A stretch of 40,829 nucleotides of DNA from a virus, in IMG/VR virus record IMGVR_UViG_3300043399_000937, positions 1 through 40,829 of that record. One strand, 5' to 3'. Shown piece by piece: positions 3,757 through 15,402 of the stretch. Position numbers and translations under genes: made by a program. Each line of letters starts with the position of its first letter. The stretch's first letter is position 1. The notes under the pieces are model-generated. The model was not told the origin of the DNA, ran no database searches, and saw nothing but the letters and a program-made list of their open reading frames with translations.

Positions 3757-4169
3757 TTTTCCTCCATTTGCGATATTAAAGTTCCTATCCTAATTAGTAA
3801 TTCCCCAATTGGATCATTTACTGCATTAAGATAAATGTTATTAACATCTAGTCTACCAAAATGAAATGATTTGGATTTAGATATTAATGTGCCTTTAAAC
3901 AAATCAATATGATTAGTACTATTTAAATTTATCCCAATTACATCTACTTGATTAGCAACATCTAACAACCAATTGTAGTTAGAATCGTTGTAATCAAAAA
4001 TGTGAATAGAAATTCTAGCACTGCTGCCACGTATAGAATTTAATGCTTGATTAACGAGATCTGCTGGCCAATCAACTAATAATACTGTTATTGCATCATT
4101 ATAAAAACGATCAGGGGGAGTAACGACTACGTGATCGTCTTTAGGATTTGTTATCTCTGATTCTTGCAA
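3753..4169 (-). CDS. Hypothetical protein, 138 aa, TTG start
   Basis: There is no in-frame ATG near the 5' end. The best start is TTG at 4167-4169, inside the 3' end of the upstream repeat-protein gene, preceded by GAGAAGAG. The product has a hydrophobic AITVLLVDW segment and a globular alpha/beta look, without recognisable catalytic residues. It is translationally coupled to rpsU by an ATGA overlap. Function unknown; the neighbours do not settle it. Confidence 0.65.
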   Translation of the reverse strand: MQESEITNPKDDHVVVTPPDRFYNDAITVLLVDWPADLVNQALNSIRGSSARISIHIFDYNDSNYNWLLDVANQVDVIGINLNSTNHIDLFKGTLISKSKSFHFGRLDVNNIYLNAVNDPIGELLIRIGTLISQMEEK

Positions 4170-4995
4170 TTACTTGGCTCTTCTCAATTTCACTTAGGTC
4201 TTCATAATCTCTTAGACCTCTGCGTACTTGATCAATGACGTAATCGATATACGCTACATCGTATACTAACGTATCATTAATTCTTTGTCTATCTATTTCT
4301 ATCCATTTACGTCCATTCCATTTATATAGCTTGTTTGGTTTGCTATCAACTTTTAGGAATAGATCACCTTTTGCAGGATGTGCTGGCCATGCTGTGCCAA
4401 ATGTAGCTGAACCTTTTTGTGCAAATGGATCAAAGTTATCTACTTGAGGTGCAAGTTGTTCAGCAATATCTACTGATTGCTGAATTGGTACCTCAACAAT
4501 TTTTTCAACTGTTTTAATTACTTCAACTGGTTTTTCAACAATACGTTCAACTACCTTTTCTACTGGTACTTCAACGATCTTCTCAACAGTTTTGATTACT
4601 TCAACAGGTACTTCAACAATCTTCTCAATTACTTTTTCAATCGGAACTTCTACAGTTTTAATTACTTCAACTGGTTTTTCAACAATACGTTCAACTACCT
4701 TTTCTACTGGTACTTCAACGATCTTCTCTACTTCCTTAATAACTTCTACAGGAACTTCAACTGTGCGCTCCACAATCTTTTCAACTGGAACTTTAACAGT
4801 TTTAATTACTTCAATTGGTTTTTCAACCTCAACAGTCTTAGTCCTATATTTTACTACAGGAACTTCTTTAATTACCTCTACTGGGACTTTGACTGTCTTG
4901 GTTTTCGTTTTGTAGCGGATAACTTCTTGGGGGACTCTAATGGTTCTAACGAGGACTCTGGCAACAATTCCTCTTGAATTTGGATTTCCGCTAAG
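4141..4995 (-). CDS. VPVE-repeat protein, -1 frame half of a predicted frameshift fusion (284 codons)
   Basis: In this frame the sequence is open from just upstream of 5001 to the stop at 4141. It encodes about a dozen VPVEVIKTVEKI/KPVEVIK-like units, then a globular tail (FGTAWPAHPAKGD, LYKWNGRKWIEID) seen in phage proteins. There is no ATG, GTG or TTG before a poor GTG at 4771-4773, which lies inside the repeat array, so independent initiation would cut the array. Repeat units upstream of that GTG (RVPQEVIRY, KVPVEVIKEV) overlap the end of the 0-frame gene. The simplest reading is a -1 ribosomal frameshift at 4995-5001, giving a 574-aa fusion (290 + 284). Confidence 0.75.
   Translation of the reverse strand, partial: LSGNPNSRGIVARVLVRTIRVPQEVIRYKTKTKTVKVPVEVIKEVPVVKYRTKTVEVEKPIEVIKTVKVPVEKIVERTVEVPVEVIKEVEKIVEVPVEKVVERIVEKPVEVIKTVEVPIEKVIEKIVEVPVEVIKTVEKIVEVPVEKVVERIVEKPVEVIKTVEKIVEVPIQQSVDIAEQLAPQVDNFDPFAQKGSATFGTAWPAHPAKGDLFLKVDSKPNKLYKWNGRKWIEIDRQRINDTLVYDVAYIDYVIDQVRRGLRDYEDLSEIEKSQVIARIRDNKS
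4511..4728 (-). repeat. Two identical 74-bp direct repeats within the VPVE array
   Basis: Bases 4511-4584 and 4655-4728 are identical over 74 bp, 144 bp apart, within a longer degenerate array (about 4490-4920) encoding the VPVE/KPVE units. The identity points to recent duplication or gene conversion within the array. Confidence 0.9.
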
Positions 4996-10968: not shown

Positions 10969-11454
10969 ATGGAATGGTTTGATACCGCAAAAAGTTTGCT
11001 AGGAACTAAAGAAGTTGCAGGATCTAGGAACAATCCAAAGATACTTGCTTGGGCCAGAGAGGTAGGCGGATGGACTGCAAAGTTTTACAATGCAGATGAA
11101 ATCCCATGGTGTGGGTTGTTTGTTGCTTATTGCATGAAAAAGAATGGCATACCAGTACACGATGGTGTATTAAGTGCGCTATCTTGGAACAGTTGGGGAA
11201 CTCCGCTTGCAAAGGGTGTACCAGGTGCAGTAATGGTATTTGTCCGTCCAGGCGGTGGTCACGTTGGATTTTACGTTAGCGAGGATAAAGACGCTTATCA
11301 CATATTAGGCGGAAATCAGAGCGACAACGTAACAGTTACCCGCATTGCGAAGAATAGACTTAAAGGTATCCGTTGGCCAAAAGGAAAACCGGCCCCTACA
11401 CAAGGACCGGTCTACGCAAAGTTTACTGGGGCATTAAGCACTAACGAAGCTTAA
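10969..11454 (+). CDS. Endolysin-like cysteine peptidase (NlpC/P60-CHAP type), 161 aa
   Basis: The protein matches the TIGR02594-like family: WxxxAxxxLGxKE at the start, then IPWCGLFVAYC with the catalytic cysteine C48, and GGGHVGFYV with histidine H98. A third polar residue may be N116 in GGNQS. Such enzymes cut peptide bonds of peptidoglycan. There is no signal peptide, so export to the periplasm would need a holin, for which the coiled-coil/TM protein at 28502-28795 is a candidate. It is transcribed opposite to its neighbours from a late box. Confidence 0.85.
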   Translation: MEWFDTAKSLLGTKEVAGSRNNPKILAWAREVGGWTAKFYNADEIPWCGLFVAYCMKKNGIPVHDGVLSALSWNSWGTPLAKGVPGAVMVFVRPGGGHVGFYVSEDKDAYHILGGNQSDNVTVTRIAKNRLKGIRWPKGKPAPTQGPVYAKFTGALSTNEA

Positions 11455-11771
11455 TACGGTACGTAATCACATACCTTCTTCTTTACACGGACATAAGTCC
11501 CGGTGTTTGGATTGTAACGACGAACTGTCTTCCACCAGCATTCACGCACATATTCTACTTGTGGTTGAACATAAACTGGTGGAGGCGGTGCAGCGTAGAC
11601 TGGGTATGCAGGATAACGTGGACGCCCAATTGCTTCTCCAATGATTAGGCCACCAAGTGCGCCACCTAGGACACCAATAATAACTTCCTCGGAATTGTCT
11701 GCCTTTGCTGGAACAGTAAAAACTGTAACAGCCATAGCAATGGCACAAATGCTTGCAATAATCTTCTTCAT
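11451..11771 (-). CDS. Exported glycine-zipper protein, 106 aa
   Basis: MKKIIASICAIAMAVTVFTVPAKA is a signal peptide with a signal peptidase I site after AKA. The mature part has a glycine zipper (GVLGGALGGLIIGEAIG), a Pro/Tyr-rich stretch and a C-terminal part with two cysteines (REC, KVCDY). Glycine-zipper proteins insert in or span the outer membrane. It could be a host-derived envelope protein used in lysis or exclusion (inference). A TATAAATA box precedes it by 20 bp, so it is probably late. Confidence 0.8.
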   Translation of the reverse strand: MKKIIASICAIAMAVTVFTVPAKADNSEEVIIGVLGGALGGLIIGEAIGRPRYPAYPVYAAPPPPVYVQPQVEYVRECWWKTVRRYNPNTGTYVRVKKKVCDYVPY

Positions 11772-11791
11772 ATTAATCTCCGTTAAGTTAG

Positions 11792-11799
11792 TATTTATA
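11792..11799 (-). promoter_or_regulatory. T4-type late promoter
   Basis: A perfect TATAAATA lies 20 bp upstream of the ATG at 11771, overlapping the end of the upstream gene. Confidence 0.8.
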
Positions 11800-12394
11800 T
11801 GTCCTGCCCAGGCACTTTAGGCTGTTGTCCTTCAGCGTTAGGCTTTTGTTCTAGTGGAGCAGTGTCAATTGGGGGGAGTTTCTTCGACTCGTCTAGACAT
11901 GCAAGAAGTTTTTGCACTGCGGCAGTTGAACCATCTAGTGGAATATATGCCGGCTGAATGTCGCCTGGCATTAGGATACGCATCTCAGACATTTCCATAA
12001 ATGCTGGAATAAAGCTGTTAACATCAATGCCGCGGATTGCAATTGTATTCTTGTTAATAAGTGAGTATGTCATATCGCCACCAACTACTTGGTTAGCACG
12101 ATTAACTAGATTCATTCTAAATGAATAGTCACCTGGGGCGTCAGCAATGTTCCATTCATAGTTTTGGAACCAAATATAAAGTTCACCAGACTTGAGGTCT
12201 TTAATGAGCTGCATAGTGCTGCCATCTTGCCACTTTGTTTCGGCTACGCAAGCTGCATTCTGTGTTGCGTTTCCAGCATTACCAAAAACGTTCCATGCAC
12301 CTGTTTGTCCACCACTATAAAAAATAGTCTCAGCAAATGCCTGTGTGGCGAAAAGACTTGCTGCAAGCACGGTTGAAAGTAATAGTTTCTTCAT
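11795..12394 (-). CDS. Exported protein of unknown function, 199 aa
   Basis: The start at ATG 12392-12394 gives a textbook signal peptide, MKKLLLSTVLAASLFATQAFA, cleaved before ETIF. A longer frame would run into the tRNA and is not real. The mature protein has two cysteines and a beta-rich body, a C-terminal LDGSTAAVQKLLACLD element resembling short periplasmic proteins of alphaproteobacteria, and a disordered Pro/Gln tail. It lies between the tRNA and the glycine-zipper gene. I do not recognise a named family; a host-acquired periplasmic protein is likely. Confidence 0.8.
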   Translation of the reverse strand: MKKLLLSTVLAASLFATQAFAETIFYSGGQTGAWNVFGNAGNATQNAACVAETKWQDGSTMQLIKDLKSGELYIWFQNYEWNIADAPGDYSFRMNLVNRANQVVGGDMTYSLINKNTIAIRGIDVNSFIPAFMEMSEMRILMPGDIQPAYIPLDGSTAAVQKLLACLDESKKLPPIDTAPLEQKPNAEGQQPKVPGQDI

Positions 12395-12415: not shown

Positions 12416-12492
12416 TGGTAGGGGTTGAGGGCCTCGAACCCCCGACACGTCGATTATGAGTCGACTGCTCTCACCAACTGAGCTAAACCCCC
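12416..12492 (-). tRNA. tRNA with CAU anticodon, probably tRNA-Ile2 (AUA)
   Basis: The 77-nt gene folds as a complete cloverleaf with CCA encoded. It has a 7-bp acceptor stem with a G1-U72 wobble, a 4-bp D stem, a 5-bp anticodon stem GTCGA/TCGAC, loop CTCATAA, a 5-nt variable loop, and a T arm with TTCGAGG. The anticodon is CAU. The loop alone cannot separate elongator Met from Ile2, but a TilS gene lies 18 bp upstream, and the anticodon arm closely resembles that of E. coli tRNA-Ile2, which argues for lysidine-modified Ile2 reading AUA. Confidence 0.9.
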
Positions 12493-12510
12493 AATTTCTA
12501 AGTATTTTTA

Positions 12511-13113
12511 TTATATATTATCTAATTTAGAAAGCAACTTCTTTTTAATAGTCTTTTGGATACCTGGATTAATCTTTTGGACAACTGGCATCGCAACATG
12601 TCGAACATAGTTACGCATATATTTAGTGTCAAAATTGGACATGTCGTCGTACCATTCCATGTTATGCTTATTACACCAATTAACTAATTCTTGCTTTGGT
12701 GTTACGAGAAAAGGACGAACAACGTTGCCACGATAAATTTCTGGAAGTTTAGGTTGACCATGCATACTACTCCAAACCCAAGTTTCAACGGCATCATCTA
12801 AGTGGTGTGCTGTAACTACTGGTGCATCAAGTTGTTCAAAATACTTGTAACGCTCATTGCGCCAGTATTCTTCCATGCTTTCATCTTTTTTTCTCGAACG
12901 CATGACAGCACCATCAACCATCTTGATGTTATGTGTTTTGCAGTAACGAGAAAGAAAAGCAAATGCTTCCTTACTTGCAACAGTGCCGTGGTCAAAAAAT
13001 GCCGCAGTAACATCGTGTTTCCTGCTAAGGAAATTTAATGCAGCCATAGAGTCTACTCCGCCGCTACAAGCGACGTAGAACGTTTTTGGCAATTTTACTA
13101 ACAATTTAATCAT
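12511..13113 (-). CDS. tilS: TilS, tRNA(Ile)-lysidine synthetase, catalytic domain only, 200 aa
   Basis: TilS attaches lysine to C34 of the CAU tRNA so that it is charged with Ile and reads AUA. Visible motifs are the PP-loop SGGVDS (17-22), the WRNERYKYF segment, AHHLDDAVETW (102-112), RPFL (133-136) and the DDMSNFDTKYMRNYVRH block equivalent to the EDPSN...RN.IRH signature. The protein stops after the N-terminal domain; the E. coli enzyme has 432 residues with two extra C-terminal domains. It is co-oriented with the CAU tRNA, and its start overlaps the oxygenase stop. Confidence 0.93.
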   Translation of the reverse strand: MIKLLVKLPKTFYVACSGGVDSMAALNFLSRKHDVTAAFFDHGTVASKEAFAFLSRYCKTHNIKMVDGAVMRSRKKDESMEEYWRNERYKYFEQLDAPVVTAHHLDDAVETWVWSSMHGQPKLPEIYRGNVVRPFLVTPKQELVNWCNKHNMEWYDDMSNFDTKYMRNYVRHVAMPVVQKINPGIQKTIKKKLLSKLDNI

Positions 13114-13673
13114 TAGACTACATTCAAATTAATAATACAACGCATTCCGTTTTTAGGTTGCTCTGCTGTATGATAGTAGCTACCATCAAATAGCACAACT
13201 CGCCCTTGCTTTGGTGTTACTCTTGCTAATACAGGAAAATCCTCTGCATGTAAATTCCTATTTTGGTAATCAATATTCCTGTGATCGCAAATAATAGTAT
13301 CGCCATCTGCGTCCATTACGTAATATAAGACTACCAAATGATCTTCGTGTGGATCAATATCCGTATGCAAATTATCTACTTCTGTTCCAATTACATTTGG
13401 GTTAAGTGGAAACTGTAAAATAGTTTTACCTTGGAGTATACCGTTAAACTTATATTTCATTTTTTCAGCACCAAGATGTCCGAGAATATCAACATCCAAT
13501 GCACTTACCTTATTACCGTTTGCATATAATCTATGCGTCATACAAGGGCGTTGCTGCACCCCTGTGCCAAACGTAACGTCTTGGGTATAAAACCAAGGAA
13601 ACTGTTCCCCAAGCACCCATGCTTTATAGCGTTCCTGTAAACTTACAGGAATAAAATCATCAATGACTAGCAT
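13113..13673 (-). CDS. 2-oxoglutarate/Fe(II)-dependent oxygenase, 186 aa
   Basis: The facial triad is visible: H103 and D105 in NLHTDID, and H168 in SYYHTAE, followed by R178, which would bind 2-oxoglutarate. The double-stranded beta-helix is bracketed by LVVLYYV and GRVVLFDG. Such phage enzymes hydroxylate proteins, nucleotides or small molecules; the substrate cannot be told here. Its 3' end overlaps tilS, raising the possibility of a tRNA or translation-related substrate, which is only a neighbourhood inference. Confidence 0.88.
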   Translation of the reverse strand: MLVIDDFIPVSLQERYKAWVLGEQFPWFYTQDVTFGTGVQQRPCMTHRLYANGNKVSALDVDILGHLGAEKMKYKFNGILQGKTILQFPLNPNVIGTEVDNLHTDIDPHEDHLVVLYYVMDADGDTIICDHRNIDYQNRNLHAEDFPVLARVTPKQGRVVLFDGSYYHTAEQPKNGMRCIINLNVV

Positions 13674-13900
13674 TATCCAATAATCTCTTGAAACTTTTCA
13701 GCTACCTCAGGGGCAAGCTTTTGTAGTAGTTCGGTTTTACCAGATAACCCACTTTCATATTGGTCCAACGCCCATGCAAGCTTTGATCTAATATTTTTGA
13801 TTTTACGGCTTTTGTTTTTATCGTCTTGAACTTGCTCTAGAGCTTCTTCAAGATAAGCATTAACTTTTTGCCATCTTTCCATTTGTCTGTTGTCTAGCAT
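13673..13900 (-). CDS. Hypothetical helical protein, 75 aa
   Basis: It begins MLDNRQMERWQKVNAYLEEA and is predicted helical throughout, with a charged QVQDDKNKSRKIKNIRSKL stretch. It is the first gene of the oxygenase-tilS-tRNA operon behind a good early promoter, with a TAGGAG ribosome-binding site. Function unknown. Confidence 0.75.
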   Translation of the reverse strand: MLDNRQMERWQKVNAYLEEALEQVQDDKNKSRKIKNIRSKLAWALDQYESGLSGKTELLQKLAPEVAEKFQEIIG

Positions 13901-14849: not shown

Positions 14850-15210
14850 TCAAATGTTGGGATTCTGTTCCAAGGCTCCCAACGGCCCGTTGAGCTTATG
14901 CTGCTACGAGGTCGCGATCGCGAACTACGATAGACTGAGCAATTTGCTCGTTACGAACGAAGTTATCGTTTGCATTTATTATCTGCGCTGTAAAGTCAGT
15001 CGCCTCACTGTAAACTCCCTTGCCCTTATTTCACTCTTGTCGATCCTAGTTCACCCCCATCAAAAGCACAGCCCGCTTTGCCTATTTCAGCTTATCCAAG
15101 AAACGACCTGGCATATTTGCAACTATGTTGTCCAGGCGGCTGTGTTTTTGGTGGAGGTGTGGGGTACCGCCCCCCAGTCCAATAAGTCTTTAAAGCACTA
15201 TCAACGCTTA
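14850..15210 (-). ncRNA. ssrA: Circularly permuted two-piece tmRNA (alphaproteobacterial type)
   Basis: Reading the minus strand, the acceptor piece comes first. A T arm (UGGGG, 7-nt loop, CCCCA; 15160-15176) leads to CACCUCCACCA ending at 15149. About 90 nt later the coding piece starts with GGGGGUGAACUAGGAUCGAC (15058 down). GGGGGUG pairs with CACCUCC to form the 7-bp acceptor stem, including the G3-U70 pair that specifies alanine. AAUAAG (15030-15025) pairs with CUUAUU (15186-15181) to form helix 2. A tag frame follows at 14973-14896, then a 7-bp hairpin (GUUGGGA/UCCCAAC, 14883-14856). The precursor must be cut in the intervening loop. Outer ends are approximate. tmRNA rescues stalled ribosomes and tags their products. 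Confidence 0.92.
14896..14973 (-). other. tmRNA proteolysis-tag reading frame, 25 codons plus stop
   Basis: The resume codon GCA (14973-14971) starts a tag reading ANDNFVRNEQ... and ending DLVAA before TAA. ANDN openings and VAA endings are typical of alphaproteobacterial tags. At 25 residues it is longer than the usual 10-15. No Shine-Dalgarno is expected, since the ribosome enters by trans-translation. Confidence 0.85.
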
Positions 15211-15216
15211 CAAAAG

Positions 15217-15224
15217 TATTTATA
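15217..15224 (-). promoter_or_regulatory. T4-type late promoter of the tmRNA
   Basis: A perfect TATAAATA overlaps the end of the DUF2061 gene. Transcription would start near 15210, just upstream of the tmRNA acceptor piece, so the tmRNA would be made late. Confidence 0.75.
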
Positions 15225-15402
15225 GCTTCTTTATTCTTCCCCAGTCAATATTAGTCCACACTCTTTCGTGGAAATAATACGCAATAGTTTGGACAATATT
15301 CATAAGGATTGCGGCTTCCCAACCAGCCCAGTATGCCGCAATTACGGTTGCTATAATTCGCCAAGTAATGGCTTTTACAATTGATCTACTATGTGTTTCC
15401 AT
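15220..15402 (-). CDS. DUF2061 membrane protein, 60 aa
   Basis: The sequence matches the short DUF2061 pattern: RSIVKAITWRIIATVIAAYWAG, a second hydrophobic helix, and the ending YYFHERVWTNIDWGR. Two membrane helices are expected (about residues 12-27 and 30-43). The family is widespread in bacteria and present in some phages; function unknown. The ATG stands only seven bases after a CATAAATA late box, with no room for a ribosome-binding site. Confidence 0.85.
   Translation of the reverse strand: METHSRSIVKAITWRIIATVIAAYWAGWEAAILMNIVQTIAYYFHERVWTNIDWGRIKKL

Follow-up and report, generated by a model that had tools for sequence, protein, structure and literature searches.

The 40,829-nt stretch of viral DNA analyzed in this study (IMG/VR record IMGVR_UViG_3300043399_000937; hereafter, the window) carries a gene for a tRNA-Ile lysidine synthetase (TilS) cut down to its catalytic domain and, immediately downstream on the same strand, a gene for a tRNA with the anticodon CAU. 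The two genes probably form an AUA-decoding cassette, with the partner tRNA as the substrate of the phage TilS. The enzyme would attach lysine to C34 of this tRNA (k2C), and the k2C34 tRNA would be charged by IleRS instead of MetRS and would then read AUA. TilS would choose its substrate mainly via the anticodon arm (G30-C40, A31-U39, and C32), not via the acceptor pairs used by full-length TilS. Having its own enzyme would give the phage a functional AUA tRNA without reliance on host TilS, which, by the E. coli rules, would recognize the acceptor stem of the window tRNA poorly.

In weighing this reading, we counted in its favor the TilS family and fold, the kept motifs, the dN/dS of 0.12–0.18, the recurrent pairing, the Ile2-type anticodon arm, the IleRS determinants, and lysidine on a phage CAU tRNA (PMC13191261). 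Counted against it were the missing C4-G69 and C5-G68 pairs, the elongator-Met character of the nearest tRNAs, the under-use of AUA, and the many TilS relatives with no adjoining CAU tRNA, which make up most of the 80 listed.

Organization of the locus

The minus-strand gene order was the 75-aa gene, the 2OG-Fe(II) oxygenase-like gene, TilS, and then the CAU tRNA (Table 1). The coding genes are joined by 1-base overlaps, and TilS and the tRNA are presumably co-transcribed. ARAGORN called the tRNA as complete with an encoded CCA end, and its score against Rfam RF00005 was 63.8 bits (E 1e-11). No second tRNA was called, and the window holds this tRNA alone. Together with the TIGR02432 match of the enzyme, these results bear out the preliminary description of a complete CAU tRNA 18 bp from a 200-aa TilS.

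Table 1. Features of the TilS-tRNA locus in the window
Feature	Position	Strand	Remark
Putative lysidine-dependent tRNA-Ile gene, identity hybrid	12416..12492	-	Anticodon CAU, 77 nt, CCA encoded
Spacer from TilS stop to tRNA, 18 bp	12493..12510	-	
Minimal TilS (tRNA-Ile lysidine synthetase), 200 aa	12511..13113	-	Catalytic N-terminal domain only
2OG-Fe(II) oxygenase-like protein, 186 aa	13113..13673	-	Overlaps TilS start; neighbor only
75-aa protein, function not assigned	13673..13900	-	Kept upstream of TilS in the close relatives L002, L008, and L016

The oxygenase had been described as part of the same operon. Its gene does lie directly upstream of TilS with a 1-base overlap, but it is not conserved with the TilS-tRNA pair. 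It was found beside TilS only in L001/L015, a contig from the same virus as the window, and in L016, and was therefore rejected as a member of the module; in L002 and L008, TilS comes directly after the 75-aa gene, with no oxygenase between them. The oxygenase-like protein matched PHROG 274 over its full length, and the label of this family, 'DNA endonuclease V', is probably wrong.

Minimal TilS

The TilS ORF scored 118.1 bits against NCBIfam TIGR02432 (lysidine_TilS_N; curated cut-off, 93.6) and 115 bits against Pfam ATP_bind_3, and its scores against the other PP-loop models were far below their cut-offs. PHROGs contained no well-matching TilS family. The window protein contains the PP-loop motif SGGxDS, as SGGVDS, and both HHxDDxxET and RNxxR of TilS, as HHLDDAVET and D..SN......RN..RH; the key residues of SGGVDS, HHLDD..ET, RN..R, and NPG were invariant or nearly so among 29 viral sequences. 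An AlphaFold2 model generated from the alignment of these 29 sequences had a pLDDT of 95 and a pTM of 0.90. The top fold matches were the TilS structures 2e89, 2e21, and 1ni5, with Z scores of 23.2, 22.9, and 22.0 (via alignment), respectively, and TtuA and LarE ranked below the TilS structures. The only sequence relatives with a solved structure were the TilS proteins of E. coli, A. aeolicus, and G. kaustophilus.

All 200 phage residues covered residues 6–234 of 313 in A. aeolicus TilS (2e89). In the tRNA-bound G. kaustophilus enzyme (3a2k; Z 20.3), only residues 1–232 of 462 were covered, and the C-terminal tRNA-binding region is thus what the window TilS misses. The model ends at the catalytic domain, and C-terminal tRNA-binding domains like those of E. 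coli and G. kaustophilus TilS are absent. Because complete C-terminal domains are not universal in TilS, they were not required for the catalytic-domain assignment. The earlier statement that all catalytic motifs are kept while these domains are lacking was accordingly confirmed. The dN/dS of TilS between close relatives was 0.12–0.18, which marks the window TilS, at the level of sequence, as a maintained enzyme under purifying selection and not a decayed fragment.

The domains that bind tRNA in characterized enzymes are gone, which would be expected if the 200-aa protein had lost lysidine activity or catalyzed another PP-loop reaction. We regard this explanation as very improbable, since purifying selection has preserved every catalytic motif, the protein passes the TIGR02432 cut-off but stays far below those of the other PP-loop models, and TilS structures outrank TtuA and LarE.

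A profile scan of IMG/VR yielded at least 568 stretches encoding TilS relatives, some of which may be cellular; phage TilS is therefore commoner than was implied by the preliminary description, according to which phages rarely carry this enzyme. At least 80 IMG/VR loci encode TilS relatives of 196–205 aa with at least 51% identity, and this size held in 80 of the 80 listed. GTDB genomes gave distant matches only, none above about 33% identity across the domain. Among deposited phages, Pseudomonas jumbo phages of the PA5oct/MIJ3 type carry TilS with 37% identity, and two huge metagenomic phages carry TilS with 36–39% identity; most of the weaker matches fell in short records without annotation, possibly of host DNA. 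As judged from these matches, the compact TilS lineage is spread over many viruses.

Recurrence of the TilS-tRNA pair

In about six contig lineages, TilS is followed on its own strand by a CAU tRNA at a distance of 9–44 bp; the pair is present in the window/L001, L002, L003, L004, L005–L007, L008, L020, and L026. The earlier view of the pair as a unit was thus upheld. All of L001–L008 have the CAU tRNA just past TilS in the same orientation, indicating that the pairing in the window is no chance arrangement. The pair recurs in differing surroundings, because the other neighbors in the window (genes for 174-, 104-, and 60-aa proteins) were common only to L001–L003, L008, and L015–L018 among the first 94 loci. 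L020 is a 518-kb record. The two genes are also adjacent in another record (G163), which was reached independently via its tRNA.

Most of the 80 listed TilS relatives have no CAU tRNA adjoining TilS. A CAU-tRNA pattern was present somewhere in nine of the ten TilS records of at least 100 kb, the shorter TilS records being fragments; the CAU tRNA of LR756502 is known from a pattern match only. That many TilS contigs have no CAU tRNA beside TilS agrees with the main rival explanation, in which the window tRNA is an elongator tRNA-Met reading AUG, TilS acts on host tRNA-Ile2 or another phage tRNA, and the two genes are merely co-located as translation genes. The recurrence of the pairing in several contexts argues against this explanation, which we consider unlikely on the whole, taking into account the tRNA features described below.

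Two further arrangements of tRNA genes were observed in TilS records. The L020 record (G008, 518 kb) gave six CAU tRNA pattern matches, at positions 119630–142948 and 300254; several of these tRNAs are Ile2-like, and at least two are initiator-like. In L009, from a 315-kb viral record, a tRNA with a CUA anticodon (4225–4302; called tRNA-Pyl) lies directly upstream of TilS, and no clear sign of TAG recoding was seen in the 10.6 kb examined.

Identity of the window tRNA

The window tRNA has the acceptor stem GGGGGUU/AACCCCU, with G1.U72, G4-C69, and G5-C68, the anticodon arm GUCGA-CUCAUAA-UCGAC, the variable loop GUGUC, and A73. In PMC12514573, which cites Ikeuchi et al., C4-G69 and C5-G68 are given as dominant determinants, read directly by E. 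coli TilS; both pairs are missing from the window tRNA. The IleRS determinants listed in PMC9976931 are A73, U12-A23, C29-G41, A37, and A38, with C4-G69 as a minor one, and the first five were all found in the window tRNA.

The anticodon arm is of the Ile2 type GA-CUCAUAA-UC, with C32 and C29-G41. In a comparison set of CAU tRNAs from genomes of proteobacteria and some others, all 22 bacterial tRNAs with this arm had C4-G69 and C5-G68, the Ile2 acceptor, compared with 0 of 19 tRNAs with the arm CA-CUCAUAA-UG (gamma/beta Met); the two pairs never occurred together with the alphaproteobacterial arm GA-AUCAUAA-UC. The closest bacterial tRNAs were alphaproteobacterial elongator Met tRNAs (84% identity), a label based on the missing acceptor pairs and the known features of these tRNAs; they have G1.U72, GUGUC, and a GGGGG T-stem in common with the window tRNA.

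A naive-Bayes Met/Ile2 score was trained on 64 bacterial CAU tRNAs and assigned 64 of 64 correctly in leave-one-out with all positions and 62 of 64 with the core alone. The whole-tRNA score is partly circular, because the Met/Ile2 labels came from the acceptor pairs. With the anticodon arm alone, the window tRNA fell on the Ile2 side (+16.2); its core gave −3.2. The score over all positions, −13.8, lies above the Met references, which reach −17.7, and below the Ile2 references, which start at 32.1. The score thus gave no clean assignment, the tRNA coming out as a hybrid outside both training ranges. By these sequence comparisons, the window tRNA is a hybrid claimed by neither the Ile2 nor the Met class.

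An elongator tRNA-Met would account for the nearest bacterial tRNAs, for an acceptor with G1.U72 and without C4-G69 and C5-G68, and for the whole-tRNA score. It fits less well with the Ile2-like arm, whose loop has C32 instead of the A32 of alphaproteobacterial Met, and with the absence of the E. coli MetRS acceptor determinants C3-G70, U4-A69, and A5-U68 as well. In addition, L002, L008, and L003, the nearest relatives, have partner tRNAs with whole-tRNA scores of +19, +24, and +2, respectively, none of which is a Met score.

Acceptor stems of the partner tRNAs

The acceptors of the partner tRNAs vary (GGGGGUU, GCGCUGG, GGGGAUU, GGGGGAU, and AGGGCCC), whereas an Ile2-like arm is largely retained. 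In PA5oct, two tRNAs differ in the acceptor but have the same core. Both C4-G69 and C5-G68 were kept in 0 of 9 adjacent partners, compared with 23 of 38 arm-matched tRNAs from viral records without TilS (p 0.0016); for the wider set of tRNAs from TilS-containing records, the ratio was 1 of 13 against the same 23 of 38 (Fisher p 0.001). After redundant lineages were collapsed by hand, which gives an estimate, it was 1 of 9 against 14 of 29 (p about 0.06). These statistics are correlative and ignore phylogeny, and many of the records without TilS are fragments. The sequences suggest that a TilS without acceptor-reading domains released the acceptor-pair constraint on the partner tRNAs. Extending this, we tentatively propose, as a possibility short of probable, that the phage TilS lineage dropped its acceptor-reading domains and evolved jointly with CAU tRNAs of its own; the acceptors of these tRNAs would have drifted from the host TilS code to give a host-independent pair, possibly on a former elongator tRNA-Met body in the case of the window.

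Several near-identical CAU tRNAs were observed on short contigs of a genome of the alphaproteobacterial class (L228; genome G089). Their acceptor, GGGGGAU/AUCCCCU with G1.U72, is that of the L004 and L020 partner tRNAs, and they are a possible clue to the origin of the GGGGGAU partner stems.

AUA codon usage

AUA occurred at 12.9 per 1000 codons in the window and made up 19% of the Ile codons, compared with 42% expected from fourfold sites. The proportion was 21% in 40 kb of the overlapping contig, and only 4 of the 71 Ile codons of the tail-sheath-like gene, which is probably highly expressed, were AUA. AUA is thus under-used relative to base composition, clearly so in the tail-sheath-like gene. 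The preliminary description had proposed that extra AUA decoding would help late translation; since AUA is avoided, also in the tail-sheath-like gene, such a boost is not indicated. AUA enrichment as the driver of the cassette was rejected, no enrichment being seen in the window or the overlapping contig.

Avoidance of AUA would be compatible with a tRNA that serves as an infection-time replacement or decoy, for example against host nucleases or toxins cutting host tRNAs, with TilS keeping the replacement pool modified and AUA demand not being the driver. Review PMC13191261 reports, for a T4-like vibriophage, that host RNA is degraded and that tRNAs of the phage sustain translation. We judge the replacement or decoy explanation improbable; the window contains a single tRNA and thus shows no broad replacement set.

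Relation to known systems

The phage TilS has the same PP-loop ATPase domain, motifs, and fold as the bacterial enzymes of E. coli, G. kaustophilus, and A. aeolicus. The latter consist of 317–464 aa, whereas the phage enzyme consists of 200 aa and has no C-terminal domains at all; even A. aeolicus TilS (317 residues) extends past the aligned catalytic part, unlike the phage TilS. Identity to full-domain cellular matches was about 33% at most. A short TilS belonging to this family (37% identity, 97% coverage) is also encoded by the jumbo phages MIJ3 and PA5oct but, in contrast to the window TilS, with no adjoining tRNA. The 2019 paper assigned it neither function nor partner (PMC6892783).

In chloroviruses, which infect eukaryotic algae, TilS occurs with tRNA clusters and was proposed to serve AUA decoding, the AUA use of these viruses being 12–13 times that of the host (PMC7589089). 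Chloroviruses are thus AUA-rich relative to their host, whereas the window phage is AUA-poor relative to its own base composition. CAU tRNAs of T4-like phages are thought to carry lysidine (PMC1524935), k2C34 was measured on a phage CAU tRNA, and host enzymes were suggested as possible modifiers of phage tRNAs (both in review PMC13191261), whereas the window phage brings TilS beside its tRNA.

Phage TilS, chlorovirus TilS, lysidine on phage tRNA, and lysidine-type tRNAs in T4-like phages are already known. Relative to the literature searched, three things appear to be new: a viral TilS lineage that is widespread and consists of the catalytic domain only, the repeated occurrence of this TilS beside a CAU tRNA, and the missing acceptor determinants of the partner tRNAs; no TilS without C-terminal domains was described in the papers searched. 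Mycoplasma TilS is also short, and we do not claim that such enzymes are absent from cells.

If active without C-terminal domains, the window pair would be close to the smallest machinery switching a tRNA from Met to Ile and would show the share of TilS specificity that resides in the catalytic domain. Some phages would then supply both a tRNA and its modifying enzyme, borrowing neither from the host. Studies of tRNA identity change, and possibly the engineering of AUA decoding, would benefit from a compact enzyme-tRNA pair that follows its own recognition rules.

Source virus

The overlapping contig, IMGVR_UViG_3300047548_001136 (L001/L015), was 100% identical to the window across 9.5 kb. Through this contig, the virus was found to encode a DnaB-like helicase and a ribonucleotide reductase; a 1092-aa tail-sheath-like protein and a RecA-like protein of the same virus were recognized by ORF inspection only. 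Judging from the contig, the virus looks like a large T4-like phage with a contractile tail.

The window also encodes a permuted two-piece tmRNA of the alphaproteobacterial type at 14853–15252 (-), about 1.7 kb upstream of TilS, with the tag ANDNFVRNEQIAQSIVVRDRDLVAA, and a tmRNA was located near TilS in two relatives (L003, 4133–4533; L008, 3651–4090). The window tmRNA matched DNA in 49 of the 289 alphaproteobacterial-class genomes and in 1 of 274 genomes from the class to which a Polaromonas genome belongs (gamma/beta). This similarity hints at an alphaproteobacterial host, with the proviso that phage tmRNA can be acquired.

An ORF made of repeated VPVEVIKTVEKIVEVPVEKVVERIVEKP units was found at 4141–4773 (-) of the window. 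In L421, from the same virus, two adjacent ORFs (10976–12301 and 12482–13816), both located among structural genes, start with the Hint/intein-like sequence GFAEGTPVLMADGKWKPIEEVKQGDWVMSF.
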